Positions 6,623 to 32,892 of a stretch of DNA of 64,000 nucleotides are shown piece by piece. The stretch is from Bradyrhizobium sediminis (GTDB lineage: Bacteria > Pseudomonadota > Alphaproteobacteria > Rhizobiales > Xanthobacteraceae). The position numbers and the translations under genes are program-made. Below the pieces are notes generated by a model. The model was given only the letters and a program-made list of their open reading frames with translations. It was not told where the DNA came from and did no database searches. Location of the stretch: NCBI RefSeq assembly GCF_018736085.1, contig NZ_CP076134.1:3854501-3918500 (forward strand), given 5' to 3'. Numbering within the stretch: position 1 is the first letter of the stretch; each line of letters opens with the position of its first letter.

Positions 6623-8790
6623 TGACGGCAGCCCAGAATATTGCCGAGCTCCTAACCGGCTACAAATGGACAACCACCACCATCACCTACACCTTCATAA
6701 CCGAGTACGCGCCTTACACGCCTGAAGGCTATCAAGAGCCAGGAGGGCCGACCCTTCTATCTGAGGAGCAAAAAGCCGCGACGAGGCAACTCTTTGCTGA
6801 CGTTCAAAGCTTTCTTGGCGTCCAGTTCGTCGAAGTCGGCCAGGACAACAGCCAAGACCAGATAGGCCAAATCGCGATCGGAATGCGCGGCAACATCATA
6901 TCGCCAGACGTTGCACTGACGAACGCCAATCTCAGCACTCCCGGTGACGGAGGTGATATATGGCTCAGAGCCGGATCATACGGCGACGGCGCGGTTACCA
7001 ATCTTTTCCTTAATACTATGCTGCATGAGATCGGGCATGCACTTGGCTTGGGCCATCCATCGTTTGGAGGCGTGCAGAATACACCGCGTTACACTGTCGA
7101 CTCAGACATTGCTGGTGACTTGGGACGTCCGACAAAACTGCAACTCTACGACATCAGCGCACTGCAATATCTTTATGGTGCTGCCAGCAGCCGAAATCCC
7201 GGCAACACTACATATTCCTACTCTTCAGGCGATCCAATGGAGTCCATTTGGGACACCGGCGGGAATGACACCATAACCGCAGCCGGCCGGTCGGCGAGCG
7301 TTGTGATCAACCTCAACGATACGGCATTCAGTTCGATCGGCTTTACAGCGAACAATCTAGAGGCGCCAAGCAAGAATATCTCGATTGCGAAAGGCGTCGT
7401 CATCGAAAACGCAATTGGCGGAAATGGCGCTGACGTTCTGATTGGAAACGCTACCGGGAACACGCTAACCGGAAATGACGGAGATGATTTCATCTTTGGC
7501 GACGAGGTCACGGCCCGCGGATTCTTTCCGGCAGCCGGAGCCTCAGCGACAATACGCGGAATCTACTGGGACGGCGACTTGCTCTCTGTCGGCACTTACC
7601 AAACGGCAGGTACGGACTCGACAACCGACAATGACGTCATCGATGCCGGAGCGGGAGCCGATTGGGTGTTCGCCGGAAAGGGCGCCGATAAGGTGGATGG
7701 CGGAGCCGGCAACGATTTCCTCGATGGCGGCGACCAGATTGACGAGATGGCCTACAATGGCATCAGCGGCAACGTGCAGATTCAGAAGCTTGCAGCGTCG
7801 TCGGTCCCCAATGACATTGCCGCGAACGGACAGCCCGTATTCCAGATAACCGTCCAGAGGAATGGCAGCTCCGAGATCGACACGATTCGCGGGTTTGAAA
7901 CGGTGTCGTTTGGCGACGGATCGCAGAAATTCAAGGGCGACTTCTCGCTGGGCGATGATTCGCTATTGCTTGATGGCGGAGCCGGCGTCGACTCTTTCGA
8001 CTTCTCGACTGCATCCAATTCAATCACTATTTACACAGGACCAGTTAACGGAGAAGAGAATTCAGTTATCAGTGGAATGGGTGTTTCGCTCAAGAATTTT
8101 GAAGCCTTCGTTGGTTCAGCAAATAATGACGTCTTTTGGTTCAATGATGGCGATCAACTCCTCTATGGGCGCTCGGGAGATGACAATCTCAGCGGCGGCA
8201 TCGGAAACGATGTCCTGGAGGGAGGCGAAGGAGAAGATATCCTTTATGGAGGCGATGGAGCCGACACGTTCATCTTAGGAGATGGTTTCGACTTTATCAT
8301 GGATGCTGATGCAGGCGACCGCTTGTTCATCCGCCTCCCGGCAATTGCCGGAAACGGTTCGGGTGAGACCGTCGTGCCAATTCTCGGGGGGTTCTTTGAG
8401 AATACGGCCTGGGATCCCGGACCACACGGCACCACCATCGGGGACAGTGCCGCCATTTTCAAACCTCGCGACGTGATTTGGGGTGAGGCTGATGCTTCGC
8501 TCTATCAATCTCTGGGTACCGACTTCCAGATCGATTTCTGGCTTGATGGTACCGATCTCATCGTCTCTATCAACACGCAAGCGGGCGAACAGGTCGGTGG
8601 TGCCGTCATAGTTGGCTATGAACCCGGCGACCTCGGACTTGTATTTGAAGAGAAGATATCACCGTACCAAGTGGACGGTGTCCGTTCGTGGTTCGATGAA
8701 GCCGAGCTCGCCTGGGAGGCGGGACATAAGGCCCTGCTCAACAACGGGGTCTTTGGCAGCATTCAGCAAGCCTCGGACTTCATCATCTAG
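6619..8790 (+). CDS. Serralysin-like M10 metalloprotease with RTX repeats
   Basis: This 723-residue protein resembles secreted serralysins exported by type I systems. The metzincin zinc motif is intact as HEIGHALGLGHP, with His136, Glu137, His140 and His146. It is followed by the family segment YDISALQYLYGA. Calcium-binding RTX nonapeptides occur near residues 270-300 (GGNGADVLIGN, GNDGDDFIFGD), 345-370 (GAGADWVFAGKGADKVDGG) and 515-560 (SGDDNLSGGIGNDVLEGGEG). Oddly, the Met-turn, usually YSVMSY, reads YTVDSD at residues 158-163, so the invariant Met and the Tyr ligand are both Asp. There is no N-terminal signal peptide, as expected for type I export, but no ABC/MFP/TolC exporter gene is in the window. 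The start ATG 6619 overlaps the upstream stop. Activity is uncertain. Confidence 0.82.
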   Translation: MMTAAQNIAELLTGYKWTTTTITYTFITEYAPYTPEGYQEPGGPTLLSEEQKAATRQLFADVQSFLGVQFVEVGQDNSQDQIGQIAIGMRGNIISPDVALTNANLSTPGDGGDIWLRAGSYGDGAVTNLFLNTMLHEIGHALGLGHPSFGGVQNTPRYTVDSDIAGDLGRPTKLQLYDISALQYLYGAASSRNPGNTTYSYSSGDPMESIWDTGGNDTITAAGRSASVVINLNDTAFSSIGFTANNLEAPSKNISIAKGVVIENAIGGNGADVLIGNATGNTLTGNDGDDFIFGDEVTARGFFPAAGASATIRGIYWDGDLLSVGTYQTAGTDSTTDNDVIDAGAGADWVFAGKGADKVDGGAGNDFLDGGDQIDEMAYNGISGNVQIQKLAASSVPNDIAANGQPVFQITVQRNGSSEIDTIRGFETVSFGDGSQKFKGDFSLGDDSLLLDGGAGVDSFDFSTASNSITIYTGPVNGEENSVISGMGVSLKNFEAFVGSANNDVFWFNDGDQLLYGRSGDDNLSGGIGNDVLEGGEGEDILYGGDGADTFILGDGFDFIMDADAGDRLFIRLPAIAGNGSGETVVPILGGFFENTAWDPGPHGTTIGDSAAIFKPRDVIWGEADASLYQSLGTDFQIDFWLDGTDLIVSINTQAGEQVGGAVIVGYEPGDLGLVFEEKISPYQVDGVRSWFDEAELAWEAGHKALLNNGVFGSIQQASDFII

Positions 8791-11355: not shown

Positions 11356-11991
11356 ATGTTGCACTGCCCACGAAATATCATGCGCACCGTCGCCTATTGC
11401 GGTCTGTTTTTGGCCACCGGACTTGTTCCGGCGCTGGCTGCAGATCCGACCGGTGACTGGCGGGTGTCGGACGGGGTCGCCAACATCCGGGTTGCCGAAT
11501 GCAATGGCAGCATGTGGGGCGTGGTTGCATGGGAGAAAACGCCTGGAGGCCGCGACAAGAACAATCCCGATGTCTCAAAACAGAACAGGCCGACCCTGGC
11601 CATGCCGATCCTGATCGACATGAAGAAGAAAGCCGCCGTCGATGCGTGGGAAGGCCAAGTCTATAACGCCAAGGACGGCCAGTTCTACAGTTCGACGATC
11701 AAGCCGGTCGGTGCCGATCAGCTCGAGATTCAAGGCTGCGTGCTCGGCTTTCTCTGCGGCGGCGAAACCTGGACCCGCGTCGCGGGCCCGATTCCCTCGA
11801 GCCCCGCCAACAGCATGGCCAAGGGCGCCCCGAAAGCCACGGGAGCCCTGCCCAAAGCCGCGGCAGCCGCCGCTCCGGCTGCGCCGAAGACCACCGGCTC
11901 GGCCAAAGCGAATCAGAAGCAGGCGGCCGGGCAGCCCGGCGACATCGGCGATATCTGCCTACTCCCCGATATCGCGCGGTTTGCCCATTAG
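11356..11991 (+). CDS. DUF2147 exported protein
   Basis: This exported protein carries one DUF2147 domain, DPTGDWRVSDGVANIRVAEC to GFLCGGETWTRV, of unknown function. A signal peptide ends near PALAA. The C-terminal 60 residues are low-complexity Ala/Lys/Pro. ATG 11356 is chosen because an AGG sits seven bases upstream; ATG 11380 (MRTVAYCG) is an alternative. The last 33 bases overlap the convergent hpnN. The short gap to the divergent hpnO holds an inverted repeat AAAACGC/GCGTTTT (11298-11319). The gene sits between hpnO and hpnN, which hints at an envelope role linked to hopanoids, but nothing in the sequence proves it. Confidence 0.8.
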   Translation: MLHCPRNIMRTVAYCGLFLATGLVPALAADPTGDWRVSDGVANIRVAECNGSMWGVVAWEKTPGGRDKNNPDVSKQNRPTLAMPILIDMKKKAAVDAWEGQVYNAKDGQFYSSTIKPVGADQLEIQGCVLGFLCGGETWTRVAGPIPSSPANSMAKGAPKATGALPKAAAAAAPAAPKTTGSAKANQKQAAGQPGDIGDICLLPDIARFAH

Positions 11992-14547
11992 CGCCGGCTG
12001 GAACAGCAGCACCGCGGCGAGCGTGGTGACGAGCGAGAGCGCCAGCAGCTTGCCCATGCTCGCGGTTCCCGGATGACTCGATAGCCACAGGCTTCCGAAC
12101 GCCGTGGCGGTCGTCAGCGCGCTGAAGAAGATCGCGCGCGTCAGGCTGGTCTGCAGCAGATTCGTCCTGCCCGACCGCCAGGCGGTGACGTAATAGATCT
12201 TGAACGCGACGCCGACGCCGAGCAGCAGCGGCAGCGCGACGATATTGGCGAAGTTGAGCGGCAGCCCGATCAGCACGCAGATTTCCAGCGTCACCGCCCC
12301 CGCCACCAGCAGCGGAACCAGTGTCAGCAGCACGTCGGTGACCCGCCGCAACGCCAGCCAGAGCAGAACGCTGATCACGACCAGCGCCCAGATGCCGGCG
12401 TGAATGAAGGCCTTCACGACGGTGTCGCCGGACTTGAGAATCGATACCGGCCCCCCGATCGCATTCGGCTCGGCTTCCAGAACGGCGCCGGCGAACTTGC
12501 GCAGCGTATCGTTGTCGTTGGGATCGCCGCGCGGCAGCGCCTCGACACGCATCAGGCCGTCCTTGGTTTTCCAGGCCGCGACCAGGTTGGCCGGCAGCGT
12601 CTTCAGGCTGACCGGCGCCGCCTGCAGCGAGTTCTTGAGCTGGTCGAGCACCACTTTCAGCGGCGTGACGAAAGCGGCCTGGGCCTTGTCCCGCGTCGCC
12701 TCGTCCGATTCGGCGAGTTTCGACAGCGCGTCGGCGAGCCGGCGCGAGGCTACCGCCCCCGGGCCCTTGGCGTCGCCGGCGGCCTTGCGCAGGCTCTCCG
12801 CCGATCCCTTCAAGGCCTCGACATTCTCCTGGTCGGAGGGCGGGGCGTCGATCGACTCCGGATTGAGCGCGGGCTCGAGCACCTTCGCCCCTTGCGCGAT
12901 CAGCTTCAGCTTGGCCGGCTGGCCGCCGGGCACAAAACTGTCCAGAGATATCACGCGAAGCACTTCAGGTACTTTCTCAAGTCTCGCTTCGATCTTCTTG
13001 GCGTCGGCTTCCGATTTCGTCATCACGTTGATGGCGTTGGCGCCGGTGTTCGGGTCCTTTCTCAGGTCCAGAAAGGTCGCGATCGACTCGACCTGCGAAT
13101 TGCGCAGGTTGATCGGGTTGAAGTCGAACTTCATGAAGTACAACAGCGGCAGGCCGGCCACCGCGACCAGCAGCGTGCCGGCGATGATCCCGACGCGGTG
13201 CTTTTCGAGGAACTCATCGACCGGCGCCAGGAACGCGTAGCCGACCGGCTCGCTTTCGCCGGGCGGATTGAGCAGTTTCAGCAGCGCCGGCAGCACCGTG
13301 ATGCTGGTCAGGAAAGCCGCCAGCATGCCCACGCCGGCGATCTTGCCGAGCTCGGAAATGCCCTTGTAGTCGGTCGGCAGAAAACACAGGAAGCCGGCCG
13401 CCGTTGCCATCGCGGCGAGCGAGAGCGGCACCGCCGAGCGTTCGGCCGCCCTCTCCAGCGCCAGCGCCAGATCGTCGTTCTTGAAACGCTCCGAACGGTA
13501 GCGGACGCTGAACTGGATGCCGAAATCTACGCCCAGTCCGACGAACAGCACGGCAAAGGCGATCGAGAGCAGGTTCAGCGAACCGACCATCATCAGGCCC
13601 ACCGCCGTGGTGATCGAAAGTCCGATGAAGAGGTTGAGGAACACGGCGAAGATGATCTTCGACGAATGCAGCGCCATCCAGAGGATGACCAGCACGACCA
13701 GGACGGTGCCGATACCGTTGACGATCGCGCCGTCCTGAACGGTCGAGAACTCCTCGTTGGCGATCGGAACCGGCCCGGTCAATCTGACCCGGGCGTCATA
13801 TCCGCCGGCCAGGTTGAGTTCGGAGGCCGCCTGCCGGATGGCATCGGTCGCAGCCTTGCCGGGCTCCAGCGCATTGAAATCGAGGATCGGCTTGAATTCG
13901 ATGAAGGCACGCCGGTCGGAATCGGTCAACGGCTTGTCGCTGACGAGTTCGCGCCAGGAGAAGGTGGCAGCCCCCTTGATCAGCACATTCTCGACCGTCT
14001 GGGCGATCAGGTTGAACGGCCGCTCGGTACTATCGAGCTTGAACTGGCCGCGCTTGACGCCGGCAAGGCCGGTCTCCAGCGCGCCGGTCAGGCCGCGAAT
14101 GCTGGGATCGCCAGCCATGATCTCGATCAGCGGGGCGGCGGACGAGAACTGGCCGGTCAGCCTGCCGACCTCCTCGACGGAGAGGAACAACAGGCCGTTC
14201 TTCTCGAAGAATTCCCCCGCCCCGAGTTGCTGGACCGATTCGAAATGCCTGGTGTCGCCGACGAGCTTGTGCGCAAGCGCGGCGGCCGCGGTGCTGGTCA
14301 GCTCGGGCGTCGGCGCCTCCACCACGGCCAGGATGGTGCGCTCGCGATCGAAGGCCTCGCCGAATTGATTGTCCCGCTTGCGCCAGTCCAGATCGGGCGA
14401 AATCAGGGTGTTGATGTCGGTGTTGATGGCGAAGTTCCGGGCCGTGTAGAAGCCCGCCGCTATCGCCAGGATGAGCGCGACCAGGACAGTTGGGAGGGCG
14501 AACCGCGTGCAAGCCTTAACAATCGAGACAACAATACTTGTCAGCAC
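11959..14547 (-). CDS. hpnN: HpnN, hopanoid RND-type transporter
   Basis: HpnN is an RND/MMPL-superfamily permease that moves hopanoids toward the outer membrane. The 862-residue length fits the family. There is an N-terminal membrane helix (residues 15-35), a large periplasmic domain to about 270, a bundle of helices at about 275-400 (GTVLVVLVILWMALHSSKII, LFVGLGVDFGIQFSVRYRSE), a second periplasmic domain, and a last helix bundle at 715-850. The start is GTG 14547. The order hpnN near hpnO, ispH and hpnH matches related alphaproteobacteria. The 3' end overlaps the DUF2147 gene on the other strand by 33 bases. Confidence 0.9.
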   Translation of the reverse strand: MLTSIVVSIVKACTRFALPTVLVALILAIAAGFYTARNFAINTDINTLISPDLDWRKRDNQFGEAFDRERTILAVVEAPTPELTSTAAAALAHKLVGDTRHFESVQQLGAGEFFEKNGLLFLSVEEVGRLTGQFSSAAPLIEIMAGDPSIRGLTGALETGLAGVKRGQFKLDSTERPFNLIAQTVENVLIKGAATFSWRELVSDKPLTDSDRRAFIEFKPILDFNALEPGKAATDAIRQAASELNLAGGYDARVRLTGPVPIANEEFSTVQDGAIVNGIGTVLVVLVILWMALHSSKIIFAVFLNLFIGLSITTAVGLMMVGSLNLLSIAFAVLFVGLGVDFGIQFSVRYRSERFKNDDLALALERAAERSAVPLSLAAMATAAGFLCFLPTDYKGISELGKIAGVGMLAAFLTSITVLPALLKLLNPPGESEPVGYAFLAPVDEFLEKHRVGIIAGTLLVAVAGLPLLYFMKFDFNPINLRNSQVESIATFLDLRKDPNTGANAINVMTKSEADAKKIEARLEKVPEVLRVISLDSFVPGGQPAKLKLIAQGAKVLEPALNPESIDAPPSDQENVEALKGSAESLRKAAGDAKGPGAVASRRLADALSKLAESDEATRDKAQAAFVTPLKVVLDQLKNSLQAAPVSLKTLPANLVAAWKTKDGLMRVEALPRGDPNDNDTLRKFAGAVLEAEPNAIGGPVSILKSGDTVVKAFIHAGIWALVVISVLLWLALRRVTDVLLTLVPLLVAGAVTLEICVLIGLPLNFANIVALPLLLGVGVAFKIYYVTAWRSGRTNLLQTSLTRAIFFSALTTATAFGSLWLSSHPGTASMGKLLALSLVTTLAAVLLFQPALMGKPRDIGE

Positions 14548-19966: not shown

Positions 19967-21220
19967 TCAGGCCTGACGCATGGCGAGGACGAGATCGGCC
20001 GCGCGGTTACCCGACCGTACCGATCCCTCGATGGTCGCCGGTAACCCCGTATCAGTCCAGTCGCCGGCAAGAAACAGGTTTTTCCAGTTCGTGACCGCGC
20101 CCGGCCGCAGGGCGTTCTGCTCGGGCGTCGCCTCGAAGGTCGCGCGGCGCTCGCGCACGATCTGCCACGGCGGCAGATCGCCCTGCACGCCCGCGGCCTT
20201 GCAGATGTCATCCCAGATCGCCTGCGCGAGCTCCTCGCGCGGCATATCGACCAGCCGGTCGCCATTGCTGATGGTGACCGACAGCCGCTGCGGAAACGCG
20301 AACAGCCATTCGACCAGTCCGCCGACAACGCCGAGAATGGCCGGCTGTCCCTTGGGCGGATCGAAGCGGAAATGCGCATTCACGATGGCGCGGAATTTGT
20401 TCGGTGTCTTCAGCCCCGGTAGCAACGCCGCGGCGGGGCGCGGCGGCACCGCCATCACCACCGCATCGCCGGGTCCGATCGTGACCGTATCACCGCCGAA
20501 CCTGAGTTCGCCGACGCCACCTGCCGCCATCGCGAATTCGCGCAGCTCGTGCCCGAACTGAATGCTGGCGCCCTTGTCCTGCAACAGCTTGATGGCGGGT
20601 TCGACCAGCACCGCGCTGAGGCCATCGCGCGCGATCAGCGGCCGGCAGGCCTGTCCTCCCGCCAGCAAGGTTTCCCGCACCACCGCGCCGGCGAGCCCCG
20701 CGGAGCCCTCCGGCGGGTCGACATTCAAGGCCGCCAGCAGCAGCGGCTGCACCAGCCGCTGGTACAGCGTCCCGTCGCAGGGGATCGCATCGCCGACCAG
20801 TTTGCTCTCGGCCGCCCAGATCAGCGGCATCAGCGCCAGATAATCGCGCAGGCGCGTGTCGGGGACGCGGCGCGCCTCGTCGAACACCCACAGCGGCAAC
20901 CGGCTTTCGCCGAGATCGAGCTGCCAGCGCTGGCCGGTGGTGAGATCGACGAACGGAAACTGCGCGCGTTTCGGTCCGACCAGTCCGGCCTCGGTGCCGA
21001 TCGACCTTGCGTAAGCGACCGCGGCACGGTTGCCCGAGAGCAACAGATGATTGCCGTTATCGATGGTCAGGTTGGTCGCCGCGTCGAAATAGGACCGGCA
21101 GCGGCCGCCGGCCTGCTGCGTGGCTTCGTGGACATGCACCTTGAAATTCGCGTTCGCCAGCCGAACGGCTGCCGAGAGGCCCGAAATTCCGGCGCCGATG
21201 ATATGGACGGTGTTTTGCAT
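19967..21220 (-). CDS. hpnE: HpnE, hydroxysqualene dehydroxylase
   Basis: HpnE is an FAD-dependent amine-oxidase-like enzyme that reduces hydroxysqualene to squalene. The 417-residue protein starts with the Rossmann motif HIIGAGISGLSAAVRLA and the adenine-binding HEATQQAGGRCRSY. It ends with the flavin-contacting LFLAGDWTDTGLPATIEGSVRSG. Its start codon shares one base with the hpnD stop (TGATG), so it is translationally coupled. Together with HpnC and HpnD it replaces the single eukaryotic-type squalene synthase. Confidence 0.93.
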   Translation of the reverse strand: MQNTVHIIGAGISGLSAAVRLANANFKVHVHEATQQAGGRCRSYFDAATNLTIDNGNHLLLSGNRAAVAYARSIGTEAGLVGPKRAQFPFVDLTTGQRWQLDLGESRLPLWVFDEARRVPDTRLRDYLALMPLIWAAESKLVGDAIPCDGTLYQRLVQPLLLAALNVDPPEGSAGLAGAVVRETLLAGGQACRPLIARDGLSAVLVEPAIKLLQDKGASIQFGHELREFAMAAGGVGELRFGGDTVTIGPGDAVVMAVPPRPAAALLPGLKTPNKFRAIVNAHFRFDPPKGQPAILGVVGGLVEWLFAFPQRLSVTISNGDRLVDMPREELAQAIWDDICKAAGVQGDLPPWQIVRERRATFEATPEQNALRPGAVTNWKNLFLAGDWTDTGLPATIEGSVRSGNRAADLVLAMRQA

Positions 21221-22059
21221 CAGATGAACGCGTAGCGAAGGATGATGAAGAGGCGGGCGAGCTTGTTGAGGCGAACCGGCGCGCGCGGCGCGGCGAAGCC
21301 CCTGGCGACCAGCAATTCGAGGATCGCACGATAATATTTCGACATGATCCGCGGCGCCCGCACCGCCCGGCGCGGATTGCGGCGCATGATCTCGTCGGCT
21401 TTCTCGAAATGCGCGCGCGCCCGCGCCACCAGCGGCATGCAGACTTTCGGCAGCGCCGGTTCCGATATCACCTTGTGCGGATCGGTGGAGGTGATGCCGG
21501 CATGCAGCAAACCCTCGAGCGGCAGATACAGCCGGCCGATGCCGGCGTCCTCGTCGATATCGCGCAGGATGTTAGTCAATTGCAGCGCGCGGCCGAGATG
21601 ATGCGCGAGCAGGATGCCGTCGTCCTCGGCGAGACCGAACACCCGCACCGACAGCCGTCCGACCGCGCTGGCGACGCGGTCGCAATACAGGTCGAGCGTG
21701 GCAAGATCCGGCGCCCGGATATCCTGCGGCACGTCCATCTCCATGCCGTCGACGATGGCCAGAAAATCCTCGCGCTTGAGGTCGAAGCGCCGCACCGACG
21801 CGACGTAGTCGCGCAGCCGCGCCGGCGGATGGCCCTGATACAGCGCGTCGATATCGTCACGCCATTGTTGAAGCGCGGCCAGCCGTTCGGGCCGCGGACC
21901 GTCGGAATCCGCGATATCGTCGACCTGCCGGCAAAAGCTGTAAATCTGGAACATCGCCTCGCGCTGCTCGTGCGGCAGAATCCGCATCGCCGCGTAAAAC
22001 GAGCTGCCGGAGGCTGATGCCCCGTAGTCTGCGTTGCCTGCCGCCGTCTCGAGCGTCAT
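21220..22059 (-). CDS. hpnD: HpnD, presqualene diphosphate synthase
   Basis: HpnD condenses two farnesyl diphosphates to presqualene diphosphate. The 279-residue all-helical prenyltransferase carries two Asp-rich metal-binding motifs, QVDDIADSDG near residue 48 and NILRDIDEDAGIGRLYLP near 165. The SSFYAAMRILP start motif is also typical. It overlaps the hpnC stop by four bases and the hpnE start by one, so the three genes form a tightly packed unit. Assignment as HpnD rather than HpnC rests on gene order and the stronger second Asp motif. Confidence 0.93.
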   Translation of the reverse strand: MTLETAAGNADYGASASGSSFYAAMRILPHEQREAMFQIYSFCRQVDDIADSDGPRPERLAALQQWRDDIDALYQGHPPARLRDYVASVRRFDLKREDFLAIVDGMEMDVPQDIRAPDLATLDLYCDRVASAVGRLSVRVFGLAEDDGILLAHHLGRALQLTNILRDIDEDAGIGRLYLPLEGLLHAGITSTDPHKVISEPALPKVCMPLVARARAHFEKADEIMRRNPRRAVRAPRIMSKYYRAILELLVARGFAAPRAPVRLNKLARLFIILRYAFI

Positions 22060-22934
22060 GCGCCGGCCGCCGGTTTGGAGACGGGCCGCCGTCCGGTCGC
22101 GCGGCGGCCCAGCTCGCTGGCGATCCCGCCGAGACTATGGCCGAGCAGTTCGAGCGGGTTGAGATGCACCCGCTCGCTGAGCGGATCGCGCACCTTCAGC
22201 ATCTGCACGATCCTGTCGGCAAAGGCCTGGATCACCGAGATCTCGCAGCCGAGCCTGATATCCCTGACTCCGGCGCTGAGCGACTTGCTCTCGTCGAGCA
22301 GCGCCTCGGTCCGCACCGCGAGCGCATGCAGGCATTGCAGCAGCGGGGCCGACGACCGCTCTGCGCCGAGCTCCTCGACCGAGGCGCCACTGGCTGCGAG
22401 CGCATCGCGCGGCAGATAGACGCGATTGAGCTGGCGAAAATCCTTGCCGCAATCCTGCAGATGATTGTTGATTTGCAGGCCGGCGCAGAGCGCGTCCGAA
22501 GCGGCCCAGGTCGAGGTGCTCTCGCCGTGAACGTCGAGCATGAAGCGGCCGACCGGCATCGCCGAGTAACGGCAATAGTGGATCACTTCGTCCCAGTTCT
22601 CATAACGCAGCTTGGTCACATCCATCCGGAACGCGATCAGCACGTCGAGCGCGTGACGCGGCGGCATCGAACGTTCGGCGAGCGCGCGCCGCAGATTGAC
22701 GGCCTCGGGCTGGGTGTCGCCGTTGCCGAGCAGTTCGGCCTCCAGCAGATCGAGAAGCCTGAGCTTCTCGCCGTCCTCGAGCGTTGCATGATCGGCGATG
22801 TCGTCGGCGGTCCGGACGAAATTGTAGTACGCAAGGATCAGCGCCCGGTGACGCGGGTGTATGATCCACGACGCCACCGGAAAGTTCTCATCGCGGTGGG
22901 TCTTGCCGGATCGCAGTTCGCTCGCGCTGGTCAT
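22056..22934 (-). CDS. hpnC: HpnC, hydroxysqualene synthase
   Basis: HpnC converts presqualene diphosphate to hydroxysqualene. The 292-residue protein is a squalene/phytoene synthase relative with the first Asp motif in VRTADDIADHATL and a second, diverged one in LQDCGKDFRQLNRVYLP. ATG 22934 (MTSASELRSGKTHRDENFPVAS) matches the usual family start; the frame is open 28 codons further upstream without recognisable sequence. It is the first gene of the hpnC-hpnD-hpnE-shc-hpnG operon, whose promoter should lie in 22935-23134, where I found no clear motif. Confidence 0.93.
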   Translation of the reverse strand: MTSASELRSGKTHRDENFPVASWIIHPRHRALILAYYNFVRTADDIADHATLEDGEKLRLLDLLEAELLGNGDTQPEAVNLRRALAERSMPPRHALDVLIAFRMDVTKLRYENWDEVIHYCRYSAMPVGRFMLDVHGESTSTWAASDALCAGLQINNHLQDCGKDFRQLNRVYLPRDALAASGASVEELGAERSSAPLLQCLHALAVRTEALLDESKSLSAGVRDIRLGCEISVIQAFADRIVQMLKVRDPLSERVHLNPLELLGHSLGGIASELGRRATGRRPVSKPAAGA

Positions 22935-23134
22935 CAAGAACTGGCTACATTCATCTGGGCATGGTGACGACGCACGCGCCGGCTGGCCCGGCTCATGCGC
23001 AGTGATCGCGAACCCCATATAGGGGAATACGACGCTAAAACCAATGCTATCTGCGATTTCTCGCAGATTCCTGACGCTTCGGAATGAGGCCCGTCAACCG
23101 CCCGCGGCGGCGATTGCCACAGTCGAGCGCCGCT

Positions 23135-24472: not shown

Positions 24473-24544
24473 GACGCGGTTTCTTCACGCGAACCGGTGC
24501 CCACCCCGCATCAAGTGCGGGGCCGGCTTTCGCTCGAAAACGTT
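24473..24544. repeat. Dispersed palindromic element with an internal hairpin
   Basis: This copy starts GACGCGGTTTCTTCACGCGA and ends TCGCTCGAAAACG, like the copies at 746-795 and 26973-27022. Between CCCAC and the end it holds an extra segment built on CCCCGCA-TCAAG-TGCGGGG, a small hairpin inside the larger one. Its end touches the stop codon of the MMPL gene. Confidence 0.7.
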
Positions 24545-26891
24545 AAGAAGTGCGGCGAAGCCGCTGCGACATGTTGATCAGCCACATCGCCGTCGGCCGC
24601 AGGATGAAGAGATCCGCGACCAGGGCCGCGACCATCGCGAAAGCGCTGAGCCAGCCGAACAGGCGCAGCGACGGCAGATCGGAAAACACCGTCACCACCA
24701 GTCCGCAGGCCAGCACCACCGTGGTCAGGATCAGCGCAGGACCGACCAGCACGGTCGCGCGCTCGACCGCGAACGCCGGGTCGACATCCGGCGTGGTCTC
24801 GAGCCGCAGCCGGTTGAGGAAGTGAATCGTGGCGCTGAGGCCGAGGCCGAACGACACCGTCAGCGCCACCACGCTGGCGAATTGCAGCCCCTCCCCCAGA
24901 GCCCACAGCACCGTGCCGGACAGCACCACCGGAAAAATGCCGGGCAGGATGCAGGCGAACATCACGACCCACGACCGGAACGCAAGGCCGATGAAGACGG
25001 CAACCAGCACGAATTCGATGGTCAGCCCACGGTTGAGCTTGTCGATCATGTTGGCGCTGTTGCGCGCGGCGATCGCGGACAGGCCGGTGACGGCGACCTC
25101 GTAGCCCGGATGCTTCTTGCGCACGGCATCCAAGGCGCCGTCGAGCTTCTCGACCACCGGCAGGATCGCACTGGAATCGAGGTCCGGCACCCTGCCCGAG
25201 ACCACCACCGCATCCTGATCGGCCGAGATGAAGCGGCGAACCAGGTGCTCGGGAATCACGCTGACATATTCCTTCAGCGTCGCGACGTCGGAACTGCCGG
25301 CCTTCTCGGCGAGCCAGCGGCGCAGCGTTTCCAGCGACCAGACGTTGCCGACACCGGCCTGGGTTTCCACCATCGAATGAACGTCCGCGATGGTCTGCAG
25401 GGTCTCTGGCGCATACAGCGACGCGCCCTTGGGGAATTCGATCAGGACGTCGATCGGATTGGCGCCGGTCAGCTTGGCGTCGAGGCGTCCGCTGGCCGCC
25501 ACCGCCTGCTGCTTGTCCGGCACCTGATCGGCGAGCCGGTAGCGCGGCTCGAGGTTGGCATAGATCACGGCCAGACCGCCGACGAAGATCACCGCGATCA
25601 GACTGAACAGCCCGGGCCGGCCGACCATGCGCACCGCGATCCAGTAGCAGAAGGCGCGCAGCGCGTTGACGCCGGCGTCGGCCGACTGGAACTTGGCGGC
25701 AAACACCTGCTCGTTGCGGACCAGCAGCACCCCGAACACCGGCACCAGCGACAGCACCGCGAGCAGCGCGATGATCGTCGCCGCAAGGCCGGCTTCGCCG
25801 AAGGTGCGGATCAAATCCGAATCCGAGAACTGCAACGCCAGGAACGAGATTCCGGCGGTCGCGTGCGTCAGCACACAGGCCGGTCCGACCACCAGAACGG
25901 CGTTGCGGAAAGCGGAGAACCGGTCTTCACCGGCCAGCAGCCGGTCACGCGCGGCGAATGTCAGCTGCATCGAATCGGAGAAACTGATCACCATGATGAG
26001 CGGGGTCATCACGTTGAGGAACATATTGAGGCTGAAACCGGCCCAGCCGAGGATGCCGAGCGACAACAGAATGGCGAGCAGCGGCGGGAACGCCGCGACG
26101 ATCATGAACGATACCTTGCGGAAGAACAGGATCGCGATCAGGCAGCCCGCCAGGATGCCGGCGACGTTGTAGATCAGGCCGTCGCGCTCGACCGCGTTGC
26201 GGATCTCGAGCTGCATGACCGGAACGCCCGACAACTCCTTGCTGAGCCCGGTATCCGCGAGATCCTCGGCCATGACCTTGCGGATTTCGCCGACCGTGGT
26301 CTTCAGCTTGTTGTTGCCGACGATCGAAGGTTCCAGCGAGAGTACGATCAGCGCCAGCGTGCCGTCTTCCGACAACAGCTTGCCGCGGATGATCTCGTTG
26401 GTTTTGACGGTTTCGATGAACTTGTCGTAATCGGCGCCCTGCGGCAGATCGGACGGGAACAGCGCCGCGGGCAGCTTGCCCGGCGCCGGCGCCTGGCGCG
26501 CCGAGAACAGCGAGATCAGGCCGCGGGTGCCGTCGACGAGTTGCAGGTCCGTGACCAGATCGCGGATCTTTTCCAGGTTGTCGCGTTTGAGCAGGGTCTT
26601 GCCCTCGACCACGACCAGCACGTCGAATTCGGTCGAGGGGAAGCGCTTGGTGACTTCCTCGTATTGCCGGTATTCCTTGGTGTTGGAACGGAACAGCTGG
26701 CTGAGCGAATCGTCGATCTTGATGCGCTCGATGCCGAACACTGCGCCGATCACCATCGCGAACAGAATGATGCAGGACAGCACGGGCGTGCGGATGGCAA
26801 TCAGGCCGAGACGCTCCAGCCCGAAGGCGATGCTCATCGGCCGCTGCTCCGATTTCTTCGCATTCGGGTCGACAGTGTTTCTTTCGAGCAT
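24543..26891 (-). CDS. MMPL/RND family permease
   Basis: This is a 782-residue integral membrane protein of the RND/MMPL superfamily, related to HpnN but distinct. There is an N-terminal helix (RTPVLSCIILFAMVIGAVFG), a periplasmic loop, a five-helix bundle at about 225-380 (VAGILAGCLIAILFF, LSLGILGWAGFSLNMFLNVMTPLIMVISFSDSM), a second periplasmic loop, and a C-terminal bundle ending LPSLRLFGWLSAFAMVAALVADLFIL. The substrate is probably a lipid or hydrophobic compound; a role in hopanoid or lipid transport is inferred only from position. ATG 26891 has an AGG seven bases upstream; GTG 26909 is an alternative. The gene is enclosed by two direct copies of a composite repeat. Confidence 0.8.
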   Translation of the reverse strand: MLERNTVDPNAKKSEQRPMSIAFGLERLGLIAIRTPVLSCIILFAMVIGAVFGIERIKIDDSLSQLFRSNTKEYRQYEEVTKRFPSTEFDVLVVVEGKTLLKRDNLEKIRDLVTDLQLVDGTRGLISLFSARQAPAPGKLPAALFPSDLPQGADYDKFIETVKTNEIIRGKLLSEDGTLALIVLSLEPSIVGNNKLKTTVGEIRKVMAEDLADTGLSKELSGVPVMQLEIRNAVERDGLIYNVAGILAGCLIAILFFRKVSFMIVAAFPPLLAILLSLGILGWAGFSLNMFLNVMTPLIMVISFSDSMQLTFAARDRLLAGEDRFSAFRNAVLVVGPACVLTHATAGISFLALQFSDSDLIRTFGEAGLAATIIALLAVLSLVPVFGVLLVRNEQVFAAKFQSADAGVNALRAFCYWIAVRMVGRPGLFSLIAVIFVGGLAVIYANLEPRYRLADQVPDKQQAVAASGRLDAKLTGANPIDVLIEFPKGASLYAPETLQTIADVHSMVETQAGVGNVWSLETLRRWLAEKAGSSDVATLKEYVSVIPEHLVRRFISADQDAVVVSGRVPDLDSSAILPVVEKLDGALDAVRKKHPGYEVAVTGLSAIAARNSANMIDKLNRGLTIEFVLVAVFIGLAFRSWVVMFACILPGIFPVVLSGTVLWALGEGLQFASVVALTVSFGLGLSATIHFLNRLRLETTPDVDPAFAVERATVLVGPALILTTVVLACGLVVTVFSDLPSLRLFGWLSAFAMVAALVADLFILRPTAMWLINMSQRLRRTS

Positions 26892-26926
26892 GCCCTGTCC
26901 AGTTCTCACATCGGCTCAATCTGTCT

Positions 26927-27022: not shown

Positions 27023-27219
27023 ATAGCGGAAATTCGTGGGGTGCGAATGAGACTGGATCGGCCACGTCCGATCGACGCTAGCCCTTGAAAACATGCGATA
27101 AATTAGCCGCGCGAGGTGTAGCAGTTCTTGCCCGCATCTCGCAAGCTCACACAAAAAACGCCGAATCGGCGCGGATGCGGAAGATAATGTCTCTCAAGGC
27201 TTGGATTCGCCATGTCGGA

Positions 27220-27990
27220 TCAATCGGTCGCGATGCGCTGAGGTATCGGGCCGCCGCTCTCGTCCTTCAACGCGACGCCGGTTACTCCCCGCGCCAGGCC
27301 CTCGCGGACCAGCCACGCAATCCTGAACGCGGCCTCGTCGTAACCAAGCCCGGCGCCGTGGATGTTGGAAACGCAGTTGCGCTCGGCATCGGTAATGCCA
27401 GGTCGCGGCGCGAAGGTCAGATAGGCCCCGAGACTGTCGGGCGCGGACAGGCCCGGCCGCTCGCCGATCAGCACGACCACCATGCGCGCCCCGAGCATGG
27501 CGCCGATTTGATCGCCCAGGGCAACCCGCGCGCCGGAGGCGACGACGGCATGGCCGATCTCGATCCGCTCCCCGGCCAGCCGCGGCATGAGGTTGCGGAC
27601 CAGCGCGACCGCGTGCGCATTGACGGCCGCCGGCGACAGGCCATCGCCGACCACGATGGCAAGCCGGCACGGCCCGGCATTGCGGCTTGCCAGCAGTTGC
27701 CTTGAGGCCTGGTCGAGCTTTCGCCCGAGGTCCGGACGGCGGAGATAATCCGTGCGCTCGCGCGCACAGCTGGATACGGCGAGGGCCTCGAGGCCGAGGC
27801 CTTCGAGGCCCGAGATCAGGGCGGGCCCTTCAAAGGCGCCATGAACGGCGTCGCGGGCACGAGCGTGAGCAAGCGTGAACTCGAGCAAAGCCCGGGTGGG
27901 CAGGCTGGCGCCGGCCCGGCCAAGCCCGACCCGCGCGGGAGTAAGGTCCCGCAGACGCTGCAGCGAGCGGGACGGCAGCGGCGTTGTCAT
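27220..27990 (-). CDS. eutC: Ethanolamine ammonia-lyase small subunit (EutC)
   Basis: EutC and EutB form the adenosylcobalamin-dependent enzyme that cleaves ethanolamine to acetaldehyde and ammonia. The 256-residue protein has the family blocks [19 protein letters not shown], the Rossmann-like cobalamin region [16 protein letters not shown] near 112 and [21 protein letters not shown] near 170, and [18 protein letters not shown] near 205. It starts only six bases after the hpnP stop and lies two genes away from eutB, all on one strand. No eut microcompartment, reactivase (EutA) or transporter gene is nearby, so this is the short eutBC type. Confidence 0.93.
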
Positions 27991-27996
27991 CTCCGG

Positions 27997-29583
27997 TTAC
28001 TCGGCAGGGACCGACGCTTCGCGCAGCCGGATCGAATAATTCGACGCGTTCTGTTGACCGACTGACGCCGCGCGCGCGAACTTGATCAGGTGATGGGCGA
28101 TCATCGCCGAACCAATCAGGCCCTCGAAATCGCCGCGCCGGAGCCGGCCCAGCGCAAATTTCCAGAACACCTTCCTGTAGTCGCCGAGCACACCGACTTT
28201 CCAGAACAGATTGCGCAGCATGATCAGGCCGCGCCTGATATTGGCCCAGCTCCTCATCTCCGGGCTGACCGGTACCTTCAGCCGGTTGGCATAGGTGTAA
28301 TCGCATTGATGCTGGTAGCGCGCGAACAGCTTCTCTGGCTCATAGGCCACTTCCATGCACCGGCGCCACGAACCGACTACCTGCTCGTAAGGCAACAGGA
28401 ATTCGACATTGGAGTCGCGACTGTCATCGTCGATCAGCCGGTTTTCGCGCTCCAGCCGATCCCACAGCGGCGTCTTCGGCAGCGCCTGCAACAGATTGAT
28501 GGTCAGCAGCGGAATCCGGGATTCCTCGACGAAGGCGAGCAGCGCATCGGGGGTCTCGGGCTTGTCGGTATCGAGACCCATGATGATGCCGGAGACAACC
28601 TCGATGCCATAGGAGTTGATGGTACGGATGCCCTCCAGGATCGGGACCATCATGTTGTGGTCCTTGTGCATCGCCTTCAGCGCGTCGGGATCGGGCGTCT
28701 CGATGCCGCAAAACACGGTGACGAAGAAAGCCTCGCGCATCAGCCCGAGGATCTCCGGCCGCTTGGCGATGTTGAGCGTCGCCTCGCAGGCGAGCCGCGT
28801 GATGTAGCCGGTTTTCTTCTGCCACTCGACCAGATGCGGCAGCAGATCCAGCGCCGCCTTGCGGTTGCCAATGAAATTGTCATCGACGAAATACACCGTG
28901 TCGGTCATTCCGCATTCGCGCAACTTGTCGAGCTCGGCGATGATCTGCTGCGGCGTCTTGAGGCGCGGATTGCGGCCATAGAGACCCGGGATGTCGCAGA
29001 ATTCGCACTGATACGGACAGCCGCTCGAATACTGGATGCTGCCCAGGAAATATTTCCGGGTCTCGGCAAGCTCATAGGCCGGTATCGGAAACTCGCTCAT
29101 GTCGATGCGATCGGCGGTTTTCAGGACGACCTGCTGTTCGGGGCGCGACGGATCGCGCGCCAGCCGCGCCAGCAGCTCGTTGGTCGCATCGCCCAATTCG
29201 CCGACATGGAGATAATCGAAAGACGGATAGTAATCCGGGCAGGCGCTTACCGACGGTCCGCCGATGGCAACGGGAAGATCGAACGCGTGGGCCCGGCGGC
29301 AGATGTCGTTCATCTGCTGGCGCTGGATATGCATGCCGCTGACAAACACCGCCTCCGCCCATTCGAAGTCTTCCCGGGTGGCCGGGCGGATGTTCTCGTC
29401 GATGAAGCGGACCGGCCAATGCTCCGGAAGGTAGGCTGCGATCAGGAGCAGCCCCTGCGGCGGCATGAAGGCGCTGACGCCGTCGGTCAGCGGATAGGCG
29501 TGTTCGAACGTGCCGAAAGAAGACGTGTAGCGCGGAAAGACGCACAGGATGCGCCGAACCGTCTCGATGCCCACAGCTCTCAT
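27997..29583 (-). CDS. hpnP: HpnP, hopanoid C-2 methylase (B12-binding radical SAM)
   Basis: HpnP methylates hopanoids at C-2 using SAM and cobalamin; 2-methylhopanoids are used as biomarkers. The 528-residue protein has an N-terminal cobalamin-binding-like domain (RILCVFPRYTSSFGTFEHAY, MPPQGLLLIAAYLPEHWPVRF, GGPSVSACPDYYP). A radical-SAM domain follows, with Cys189, Cys193 and Cys196 in CPYQCEFC, then DIPGLYGRNPRLKTP. A C-terminal domain of the DUF4070 type ends it. ATG 29583 follows a strong AGAGGAAG site. It lies between eutB and eutC on the same strand, which is unexpected. The related HpnR (C-3 methylase) was considered, but overall sequence and length fit HpnP better. Confidence 0.85.
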   Translation of the reverse strand: MRAVGIETVRRILCVFPRYTSSFGTFEHAYPLTDGVSAFMPPQGLLLIAAYLPEHWPVRFIDENIRPATREDFEWAEAVFVSGMHIQRQQMNDICRRAHAFDLPVAIGGPSVSACPDYYPSFDYLHVGELGDATNELLARLARDPSRPEQQVVLKTADRIDMSEFPIPAYELAETRKYFLGSIQYSSGCPYQCEFCDIPGLYGRNPRLKTPQQIIAELDKLRECGMTDTVYFVDDNFIGNRKAALDLLPHLVEWQKKTGYITRLACEATLNIAKRPEILGLMREAFFVTVFCGIETPDPDALKAMHKDHNMMVPILEGIRTINSYGIEVVSGIIMGLDTDKPETPDALLAFVEESRIPLLTINLLQALPKTPLWDRLERENRLIDDDSRDSNVEFLLPYEQVVGSWRRCMEVAYEPEKLFARYQHQCDYTYANRLKVPVSPEMRSWANIRRGLIMLRNLFWKVGVLGDYRKVFWKFALGRLRRGDFEGLIGSAMIAHHLIKFARAASVGQQNASNYSIRLREASVPAE

Positions 29584-29741
29584 CAAACTTCCTCTGGGAA
29601 CGCTCGTAAAACCTGCCCGGCCGCCAAGTTTAACCACGCGAACAGAGGCTGGGCTACAAATTCTTCAAGATTGTGGCAGCCATTTCAAGCTGTTGATGGC
29701 CTGATGGTCGCCGGGGAACCCGGCGGCGGCGCTTCCGGCGC

Positions 29742-31124
29742 TCAGACCAGCAAGCGCGACGCAAAATCGGGCAGCGACCCCGTGTTGTCGGCCAGCCGAA
29801 AGCCGGCATCGGCAAGGCCTGCGCGGAACAGCCAGTCGTCGAATTCCGGCGCCCGCTTCAGGCCGAACAGGTCGCGGATATAGAGCGCGTCATGGAACGA
29901 GGTGGACTGGTAGTTCAGCATGACGTCGTCGGCCCCGGGCACCCCCATGATGAAGGTGACGCCGGCGGCGGCGAGCAGGGTCAGGAGATTGTCCATATCG
30001 TCCTGATCGGCCTCGGCGTGGTTGGTGTAACAGACGTCGACGCCGAGCGGCAGGCCGAGCAGCTTGCCGCAGAAATGGTCCTCCAGCCCGGCGCGGATGA
30101 TCTCCTTGCCGTCATAGAGATATTCCGGGCCGATGAAGCCGACCACGCTGTTCACCAGTAGCGGATCGAAAGCGCGGGCCACCGCGTAGGCGCGCGCCTC
30201 GCAGGTCTGCTGGTCGACGCCGCGATGGGCGTTGGCCGACAGCGCCGAGCCCTGCCCGGTTTCGAAATACATCACATTGCTGCCGACGGTTCCGCGCCGC
30301 AGCGACAGTCCCGCCTGGTGGGCCTCCCTCAAGAGCGCGAGATCGATGCCAAAACTCCGGTTCGCCGCCTCTGTGCCCGCGATCGACTGGAACACCAGAT
30401 CGACAGGCAAGCCCTGCTCCATCAATCCGAGCGTTGTCGTTACGTGGGTCAGAACGCAGCCCTGCGTGGGTATCTGCAGCCGGGCGATGATATCGTCGAG
30501 CAACCGCAGCAGCCCGCCGATCACGGCGGGATCGTCGCTGGCCGGGTTGATGCCGATACAGGCATCGCCGGATCCGAGCAGGAGGCCGTCGAGGATCGAG
30601 GCGGTGATGCCCTTGGCATCGTCGAAGGGATGATTGGGCTGCAGCCGCACGCTCATCCGTCCGCGCAGCCCGATGGTGTTGCGAAAGGCCGACGTCACCG
30701 CGCATTTCTTCGCCACCAGGATCAGGTCCTGGTTGCGCATCAGTTTCGAAACCGCCGCGGCCATCTCCGGCGTGACACCGCGCGACAATTTCCCGAGAAC
30801 GTCGGGGGTGGCCGCGTCGGAAAGCAGCCAATCGCGGAACGCGCCGACCGTCAGCGACGAGATCGCCGCAAAGGCCGCATCATCGTGGGTATCGACGATC
30901 AGGCGGGTGACTTCATCGTCCTCGTAGGGAACGACGGCCTCCTGCAGGAATTGCCTGAGGGGAACGTCTGCCAGCGCGATCCGCGCTGCGATCATCTGCT
31001 CGGCGCTGTCGGCGGCCAATCCCGCCAGGCGATCGCCGGAGCGCGGCGGCGTGGCCTTGGCCAGGAGATCGCGCAAGTCTTCGAACACATAGCTGGTGGC
31101 ATCGATGGCGTGGCGATAGACCAT
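29742..31124 (-). CDS. eutB: Ethanolamine ammonia-lyase large subunit (EutB)
   Basis: EutB holds the active site of coenzyme-B12-dependent ethanolamine ammonia-lyase. The 460-residue TIM-barrel protein shows the family segments GLRGRMSVRLQPNHPFDDAKG, DACIGINPASDD, the active-site FETGQGSALSANAHRGVDQQT near residue 290, and NSVVGFIGPEYLYDGKEIIRAGLEDHF. VDVCYTNHAEADQDDMDNL and FIMGVPGADDVMLNYQSTSFHD close the protein. It heads the eutB-hpnP-eutC run, with 158 bases to hpnP. The product acetaldehyde would need a separate dehydrogenase; none is adjacent. Confidence 0.95.
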   Translation of the reverse strand: MVYRHAIDATSYVFEDLRDLLAKATPPRSGDRLAGLAADSAEQMIAARIALADVPLRQFLQEAVVPYEDDEVTRLIVDTHDDAAFAAISSLTVGAFRDWLLSDAATPDVLGKLSRGVTPEMAAAVSKLMRNQDLILVAKKCAVTSAFRNTIGLRGRMSVRLQPNHPFDDAKGITASILDGLLLGSGDACIGINPASDDPAVIGGLLRLLDDIIARLQIPTQGCVLTHVTTTLGLMEQGLPVDLVFQSIAGTEAANRSFGIDLALLREAHQAGLSLRRGTVGSNVMYFETGQGSALSANAHRGVDQQTCEARAYAVARAFDPLLVNSVVGFIGPEYLYDGKEIIRAGLEDHFCGKLLGLPLGVDVCYTNHAEADQDDMDNLLTLLAAAGVTFIMGVPGADDVMLNYQSTSFHDALYIRDLFGLKRAPEFDDWLFRAGLADAGFRLADNTGSLPDFASRLLV

Positions 31125-31191: not shown

Positions 31192-32892
31192 CTAAGCAGC
31201 CCGGACGGTGGCGAGGAATTTGACCACCTCGGCCTTGAGGCGCTTGTTTTCGTCGGAAAGCAATTGCGCCGATGCCAGCACCTGCGCCGATGCCGAACCG
31301 GTATCGCCGGCGCCGCGGTTGACGTCGGCAATGGAGGTTGCGACCTGGGTGGAGCCGATCGCCGCCTGCTGCACGTTGCGGGCGATCTCCTGGGTCGCGG
31401 CGCCCTGCTCCTCGATCGCGGCAGCGATCGCCGCGGCGATTTCGGAAACCCGGCCGATGGTGCCGCTGATCTCCTTGATGGCGACCACCGAATCCTGCGT
31501 CGCCGCCTGCATCCCGGCAATCTGGGTAGAGATCTCGCTGGTGGCCTTGGCGGTCTGCGAAGCGAGCGCCTTGACCTCCTGCGCCACCACCGCAAAGCCG
31601 CGACCGGCCTCGCCCGCGCGGGCGGCCTCGATGGTCGCGTTGAGCGCCAGGAGGTTGGTCTGCTCGGCGATCGTGGTGATCAACTGGGTGACGTCGCCGA
31701 TACGGCTCGCAGCAAGCGACAATTCGGCGATCCGCGCGTCGGTCCTTTGCGCCTGCTCGACCGCCTCGTTGGCGATCCGGTTGGAATCCGTCACCTGGCG
31801 TCCGATTTCGTTGACGGAGCTGGCCATTTCCTCGGTCGCCGACGCCACCGACTGCACGTTGGTCGAGGTCTCTTCCGAAGCCGCGGCGACCACGGTCGAG
31901 AGCTCCTGGGTTGCGGTGCTGCTCTTGGTCAGGATGACGGCGGAATTTTCCAGTTCGCTCGACGCCGAGCCAACGTTCTCAATGATATTGCCGACCGCGG
32001 TCTCGAAACGATCGGCCAGGTTATGCAGCTCGGCGCGGCGGGCCGCCGCCAGTTCGCGGGTTTTTTCTTCGCGCTCGGCGGTCTCGCGTTCGGCCTTGGC
32101 GATGGCCTGCACCTTGAATTCCTCGACCGCGCGGGCCATCTGCCCGACTTCGTCGCTGCGGTCCAGCCCCGGCAACTGGACTTCGAAATTGCCGACCGCG
32201 AGTTCGCGCATCGCCTTCGACATCGCGACCACCGGGCGGGAAATGTTCCGGCCGATGAAGAACGAAACGACGATGCCGGCGAACGCCACGACCAGAAGCA
32301 CGGCCATCAGCGTCAACTGCTGCTGCTCGAGCCGCATCCCGGCGCGGGCAATTTCGCGATCCTTGCTGTCGCTGCTGCGCGTGATCAGATCGTCGGTCAA
32401 TTTCTCGATCTCGGCGAAATTCCGCTCCGCGCCCTTGATGAACAACAGCGCCGATCCGGCATCGCCGTCGGCCATCTCGATGGCGTTCCTGGATTGCTTG
32501 AGATAGCCAGCGACGGCCGCTTTCAGTTTTTCCAGGCCATCCGATTTGACGCCGCCCTGGGTGCTTTCGACCGCCTTCAATGCCTCCGAGATCTTAGCGG
32601 CGGCACTGGAGGCTTCCTTGGCGATGGCCGTAACCTTCTTGGTATCGGTTTCATTGGCCGCGGTCGCCGCCAGCCGGTACAGCTTGGCATGCGCCATCCA
32701 GGTCGTGGTGGTGAGTTCGTTGGCCAGCTCGGATTGCCGCATCGGCCCCGAGACAAGCGCATCGACCGCGGTCTGGTTCGACCGCAGCGCCTGCAGGGCA
32801 TAGGCGCCAACGCCGATCAGGACCAGGATCAGGAACGCCGGCGCGAGCTGAACTTTCCAGGACAGCCCGATATTCTTGATCCAGCCGAGCAT
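31192..32892 (-). CDS. Methyl-accepting chemotaxis protein
   Basis: This is a 566-residue transmembrane chemoreceptor. It has an N-terminal helix (residues 13-33), a helical periplasmic domain of the four-helix-bundle type, a second helix (about 192-217, [20 protein letters not shown]), a HAMP domain, and a long coiled-coil signalling domain. The hairpin tip [20 protein letters not shown], followed by [18 protein letters not shown], is the CheA/CheW contact. No C-terminal NWETF-type CheR pentapeptide is present. A soluble Cache protein is encoded just upstream on the same strand, so the two may form a binding-protein/receptor pair. It is next to eutB, which could suggest ethanolamine sensing, but this is only positional. 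Confidence 0.9.

Follow-up and report, generated by a model that had tools for sequence, protein, structure and literature searches.

A predicted hopanoid C-2 methylase gene between the two ethanolamine ammonia-lyase genes: a conserved order in Bradyrhizobium and its relatives

A 64,000-nucleotide stretch of the Bradyrhizobium sediminis genome (NCBI RefSeq assembly GCF_018736085.1, contig NZ_CP076134.1, positions 3,854,501 to 3,918,500; hereafter the window) carries on its minus strand the genes for the two subunits of ethanolamine ammonia-lyase, eutB and eutC, separated by hpnP, which most likely encodes the hopanoid C-2 methylase. Comparison with related genomes confirmed that this eutB-hpnP-eutC order, called the triple below, is real and conserved across a large clade. 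The arrangement is probably best explained as a read-through unit with an internal promoter for hpnP and eutC, in which hpnP would have its own regulation and the eut pair would be dispensable. According to this explanation, hpnP entered the eut pair, next to the hopanoid cluster, in an ancestor that gave rise to a crown group of the window's family. Read-through from upstream would yield both lyase subunits and HpnP, and an internal promoter of the extracytoplasmic function (ECF)/EcfG type before hpnP would yield HpnP, and EutC with it, without EutB. Translation of EutC would use the hpnP message, probably through stop-start coupling, and later lineages would have lost both eut genes and kept hpnP.

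The distribution of the order was examined in 297 genomes of the order, in 169 genomes of the family, where hpnP was called at E ≤ 1e-150, and at named loci, which are the best 80 of 312 matches and mostly Bradyrhizobium by title. In the order set, eutB is found in 80 and eutC in 79 of the 297 genomes. Outside the window's family the two genes are normally adjacent, as the initial annotation had it: eutC lies within 173 bases on the same strand at 68 of 71 eutB loci, and the three exceptions have no eutC match on the contig, two of them being short eutB fragments. The family sample has 84 eutB loci: at 53 of them eutC is no more than 5 kb away with hpnP not in the interval, at 30 hpnP intervenes, and a single one has no eutC nearby. 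Of the 169 family genomes, 81 contain hpnP and 79 contain eutB; 43 contain both genes and 30 the triple, which is 30 of the 81 hpnP genomes and 30 of the 43 with both genes. These triples are spread over eight genus-level groups (g1, 9; g3, 7; g147, 6; g127, g138 and g141, 2 each; g145 and g165, 1 each), and wherever hpnP in this sample lies within 5 kb of eutBC on the same strand, it is between eutB and eutC. The triple also occurs at 77 of the best 80 of 312 named loci (eutB is cut by the contig end in L071 and L095), so that the order extends beyond one strain. Two of the three named loci lacking it, L088 and L106, reach the contig edge just 3' of hpnP, and the third, L075, has no eut match at the threshold used. 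In all six genomes of the order-level group f42 that have both, hpnP is sited away from eutBC; this group may be Methylobacterium-like. Presence as such does not link hpnP and eutB, because 43 of the 81 hpnP genomes have eutB and the two genes are not clearly associated in the 169 family genomes (both, 43; hpnP only, 38; eutB only, 36; neither, 52; Fisher p = 0.12, no kinship correction). Among the papers listed in searches of an open-licence library, none places hpnP side by side with eut genes.

The middle gene is called HpnP because of its domains, an identity gap in the order set and the names given by sources. It encodes radical S-adenosylmethionine (SAM) and DUF4070 domains, the CxxxCxxC cluster motif and a B12-binding match of 30.6 bits, just below the Pfam cut-off of 32.1; precomputed Pfam assignments give the B12-binding domain to most of its relatives among the matches listed. 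In the order set, where matches were taken to E 1e-60 and at most four candidates per genome were scored, its relatives show either 57-100% identity (at least 682 bits) or at most 40% (at most 309 bits), with none between. Among the best 120 of 6206 relatives, 27 carry the source name 'hopanoid C-2 methylase', at 82-88% identity, and about as many carry a generic radical SAM name alone. In domain make-up, membership of one orthologous family and proximity to the hopanoid cluster the gene appears like the TIE-1-type HpnP of Rhodopseudomonas palustris, and it differs in its placement inside the eutB-eutC pair. It is very improbable that the gene encodes another B12-radical SAM enzyme. Such a reading could draw on the NCBIfam scan, which returned no HpnP model and no family above its cut-off, and on the B12-binding score just short of the threshold, but it is opposed by the clean identity gap, the hopanoid methylase names, the adjoining hopanoid cluster and the low scores for HpnR (49 bits against a cut-off of 650) and HpnJ (47 against 578). 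The gene is thus most likely the hopanoid C-2 methylase named at first annotation, and its product is expected to make 2-methylhopanoids. A 2025 survey (PMC12583986) states that hpnP usually lies apart from the other hopanoid genes.

The spacing of the three genes makes read-through from eutB to eutC plausible. With starts taken from the alignment, hpnP and eutC overlap or lie within 10 bases of each other in 81 of 106 triples, the gap in the window being six bases, and terminator-like hairpins are not enriched in the eutB-hpnP gap (15 of 106 against 55 of 212 shuffles). The same scan finds such hairpins 3' of eutC in 46 of 105 triples; in the window region the pattern gives seven sites on both strands against 3.4 expected, so that the eutC hairpin is weak evidence by itself. 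Because of the tight hpnP-eutC spacing, EutC probably depends on the hpnP message, in keeping with the first suggestion that it could hardly be made without reading through hpnP.

In R. palustris TIE-1, hpnP is reportedly under EcfG control, to go by the title of a 2013 paper. For Rhizobium etli, PMC3892343 gives the EcfG motif as GGAAC-N16-CGTT, and the introduction of an eLife article links hpnP to a stress-responsive pathway. In the strict form, with a spacer of 15-17, this motif lies within 200 bases 5' of hpnP at 16 of 57 distinct family loci outside Bradyrhizobium and upstream of other genes at the same loci in 1 of 813 cases, a control that is unmatched and includes many coding regions. 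At least eight of the nine EcfG letters are found before hpnP at 50 of 58 non-Bradyrhizobium loci (36 of 580 shuffles) and at 27 of 88 Bradyrhizobium loci (44 of 880 shuffles). The loose form GGAAC-N15-17-NNTT precedes hpnP at 44 of the 58 non-Bradyrhizobium loci, at 19 of 21 with eutB, in or near the eutB-hpnP gap, and at 25 of 37 without it. These 44 loci are like the EcfG promoters of alphaproteobacteria (GGAAC-N16-17-nnTT); Bradyrhizobium differs, with a diverged GnAAC-yAT form. Scored with a matrix built from the other loci, the upstream regions of Bradyrhizobium hpnP have a median of 7.7; the corresponding values are 2.4 for shuffled sequence and from -0.1 to 3.6 upstream of other genes, and 47% of the Bradyrhizobium scores exceed the 95th percentile of the shuffles. 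The motif in the relatives may point to a sigma factor of the EcfG type, which agrees with the control reported for TIE-1.

A second upstream element is typical of Bradyrhizobium. The core of the block at 29677-29648 is present in 74 of 88 Bradyrhizobium hpnP upstream regions, the window included, and in 5 of 58 at other loci, with no occurrence elsewhere in 1,192 kb of Bradyrhizobium loci. Most of it persists in L075, a locus from which both eut genes have gone. A FixK-type or sigma-54 site in this block was considered by eye and dropped.

The history of the arrangement was approached through trees of EutB and HpnP. In the EutB tree (79 rows, the window plus 78 of 158 extracted), all 34 hpnP-linked rows form one clade, with support of 100/99 and recovery in 100% of 200 bootstrap trees, which suggests one origin. 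Thirteen family genomes have hpnP and eutB but no triple, and 12 of them, all except G300, are placed in this tree. In seven, eutBC falls in one other clade (rows L183-L187, L190 and L191), and in five (G391, G307, G372, G336 and G367) eutB lies elsewhere outside the triple clade; their eutBC therefore is not the same pair moved away. The HpnP tree, made with a quick method, has 97 rows (75 of 81 family hits, 15 of 80 named loci and 7 of 11 order-level relatives) and leaves out the six lowest-scoring family hits, whose genomes have no eutB matches. It shows nine changes between triple and no triple, at least six of which are forced by starred branches, against a mean of 32 with shuffled labels; such counts alone do not discriminate gain from loss. 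Loss of the eut pair is directly evidenced in L075 (Bradyrhizobium sp. BRP22), where a eutB fragment (residues 304-333) precedes an intact hpnP and a eutC fragment (residues 213-243) follows it. These fragments, at 6668-6779 and 8620-8712 of that locus, mark a natural loss of ethanolamine lyase. Every g159 genome that has hpnP (seven in all) shows the same frame without eut genes, as does G429: a chemoreceptor-like or 41.7-type gene, then hpnP, then the same MMPL gene as in the triples. In other lineages the neighbours of hpnP are different. A single insertion and repeated loss of the eut pair make up the simplest account; for gain instead of loss, either two separate insertions must have flanked hpnP or the triple must have been transferred as a whole. 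We infer a single insertion, with losses in most of the eut-less lineages.

The window's EutB and EutC score above their NCBIfam cut-offs (699 bits against 554 and 312 against 230), and this eutB is the only copy in the 5.55 Mb single-contig genome. Five residues that correspond to substrate-contact positions of E. coli EutB (R160, Q162, N193, E288 and D363 in the window) are conserved in 114 of 114 hpnP-linked rows and 45 of 45 others. The ratio of nonsynonymous to synonymous substitution rates, from four comparisons per gene, is 0.08-0.14 for eutB and hpnP and 0.15-0.25 for eutC, indicating purifying selection on all three. The triple resembles the catabolic eat-eutB-eutC unit in having both subunits with conserved substrate-contact residues, but differs in that the subunit genes are split by hpnP and in that the window's genome has no TIGR00908 permease above the cut-off of 382 bits, the best match, located far away, scoring 75. 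At the relative locus L190 a permease of 606 bits is the neighbour of eutB. Matches to the permease at E ≤ 1e-80 occur in 1 of 30 triple genomes and 21 of 49 other eutB genomes (Fisher p = 7e-5, no kinship correction), 20 of the 21 adjoining eutBC. With the curated cut-off the difference shrinks to 1 of 30 against 6 of 49 (p = 0.24), so the contrast rests on matches slightly below it. This hints that the enzyme of the triple may act on ethanolamine produced within the cell. The cofactor of EutBC is adenosylcobalamin, and methylcobalamin is the form expected for HpnP; the use of cobalamin by both products, pointed out in the initial annotation, is therefore weak evidence of a tie.

Several observations weigh against a read-through unit with an internal promoter and a single origin. 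The loose motif is found at none of 88 and the strict form at none of 87 Bradyrhizobium loci. A diverged form, G[GAC]AAC[CT]AT-N12-14-N[GA]TT, does precede hpnP at 57 of 87 (1 of 870 shuffles), a count that is descriptive, the pattern having been drawn after the alignment was viewed. The window has no GGAAC-N16-CGTT; its best matrix score in 170 bases is 1.68, away from the aligned site, which is degenerate. The hpnP-eutC gap is 12-297 bases in 25 of the 106 triples, so coupling is not universal. As to history, 32 of the 93 inner branches of the HpnP tree are open, the triples of g145 and g138 could have arisen by transfer of the whole triple, and no eut remnants were found within 1.5 kb on each side at the other 26 of the 27 eut-less loci. 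Because remnants occur at only one of these 27, we infer loss outside L075 from the tree and the frame.

The order may instead be a neutral relic, in which hpnP landed by chance in the eut pair and the order was kept by descent without regulatory or functional meaning. This is a serious possibility, although on balance a doubtful one. It agrees with the single clade of hpnP-linked EutB, with the eut-less lineages that keep hpnP while other hpnP lineages have other neighbours, and with the unclear association of the two genes in the family. However, the near-constant triple in Bradyrhizobium-type loci, the tight hpnP-eutC spacing, the purifying selection and the upstream elements that are conserved point to a use of the arrangement in expression, at the least. 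A functional module would go further: EutBC would consume ethanolamine from the cell's own phosphatidylethanolamine turnover, HpnP would stiffen the membrane, and general stress would induce both. Such a module, which is not mutually exclusive with the regulatory explanation, is unlikely. The EcfG-type motif in relatives, the permease contrast at E ≤ 1e-80, which makes an internal ethanolamine source plausible, and the intact triple away from the hopanoid cluster in both g138 genomes speak for it. Yet most permease matches fail to reach the curated cut-off, several lineages have no eut pair next to hpnP, and eutB precedes the internal promoter, so that stress would raise EutC and not EutB unless an upstream promoter responded too; an Rfam scan of the window at gathering cut-offs also returned no family and hence no cobalamin riboswitch. 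Decidedly unlikely is a more specific version, a stress-linked membrane-remodelling unit in which permease-less EutBC consumes ethanolamine freed from the cell's own phosphatidylethanolamine, HpnP methylates hopanoids and the internal stress promoter sets the ratio of EutC to EutB.

The order had first been taken to suggest co-expression tying ethanolamine use to hopanoid methylation. Such a functional tie is not supported, because relatives have promoter-like sites before hpnP (the window's own copy is not clearly preserved) and because several lineages have hpnP but no eut pair, in one case with pieces of both eut genes still in place. HpnP does not seem to depend on ethanolamine use; a one-way regulatory tie, with EutC made from the hpnP message, is likely.

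The features of the locus are given in Table 1; the coordinates, strand, gaps of 158 and 6 bases and gene identities first assigned all hold. In the direction of transcription the genes run chemoreceptor-like gene, eutB, hpnP, eutC, MMPL transporter, hpnC, hpnD, hpnE, shc. The triple had been placed downstream of the main hpn locus, but in this sense it is upstream of hpnC-hpnD-hpnE-shc, with the MMPL gene between. The start of hpnP is taken at its conserved ATG; a GTG at 29637 would give a longer reading. In Bradyrhizobium, and in several further genus groups, eutC or hpnP usually has the MMPL/RND transporter as its 3' neighbour; this protein is a candidate hopanoid-related transporter. It was rejected as HpnN (57 bits against a cut-off of 752), the true HpnN being at 11959-14547 with 1340 bits. 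In g138 (L199 and L225) the intact triple is away from the hopanoid cluster and transporter, and the flanks compared have no matches to the window's other genes. In g145 (L170, L171, L182 and L226) the genes after hpnP are a relative of the one at ~33.5-34.7 kb in the window, an HI0933-type flavoprotein by eye, and then hpnC; in the window, L200, L203 and L214 that gene is instead upstream of the chemoreceptor-like gene.

Table 1. Features of the eutB-hpnP-eutC locus in the window (positions counted from its first nucleotide)
Feature	Position	Strand	Basis or remark
Chemoreceptor-like gene, upstream of eutB	31192-32892	-	Gene order
eutB, ethanolamine ammonia-lyase large subunit, 460 aa	29742..31124	-	NF011649 699 bits, PF06751 704 bits
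eutB-hpnP gap, 158 bases	29584..29741	-	Promoter-like conserved sequence in relatives; terminators not enriched
Degenerate counterpart of the ECF-type promoter site of relatives	29687..29711	-	Aligned position
Block GCCACAATnTTGAAGAATTT...CCCAGC, conserved before Bradyrhizobium hpnP	29648..29677	-	Core pattern counts across loci
hpnP, most likely hopanoid C-2 methylase, 528 aa from ATG at 29583	27997..29583	-	Domains, identity gap, source names
eutC, ethanolamine ammonia-lyase small subunit, 256 aa	27220..27990	-	NF003971 312 bits, PF05985 298 bits
Terminator-like hairpin with T-run 3' of eutC	27158..27172	-	Pattern scan
MMPL/RND transporter gene, not HpnN; usual downstream neighbour	24543..26909	-	Profile scores, locus comparison
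hpnC and hpnD, start of the main hopanoid cluster, downstream	21220..23018	-	TIGR03464 and TIGR03465 above cut-off

As molecular fossils the 2-methylhopanes are disputed, since it is unclear what 2-methylhopanoids do, and the order, kept in several genus groups and broken in others, offers comparisons of the same hpnP with and without the eut pair. The arrangement also indicates that an enzyme of two subunits can be maintained when an unrelated and seemingly separately regulated gene divides its subunit genes, and that deletion of hpnP in Bradyrhizobium may silence eutC too.

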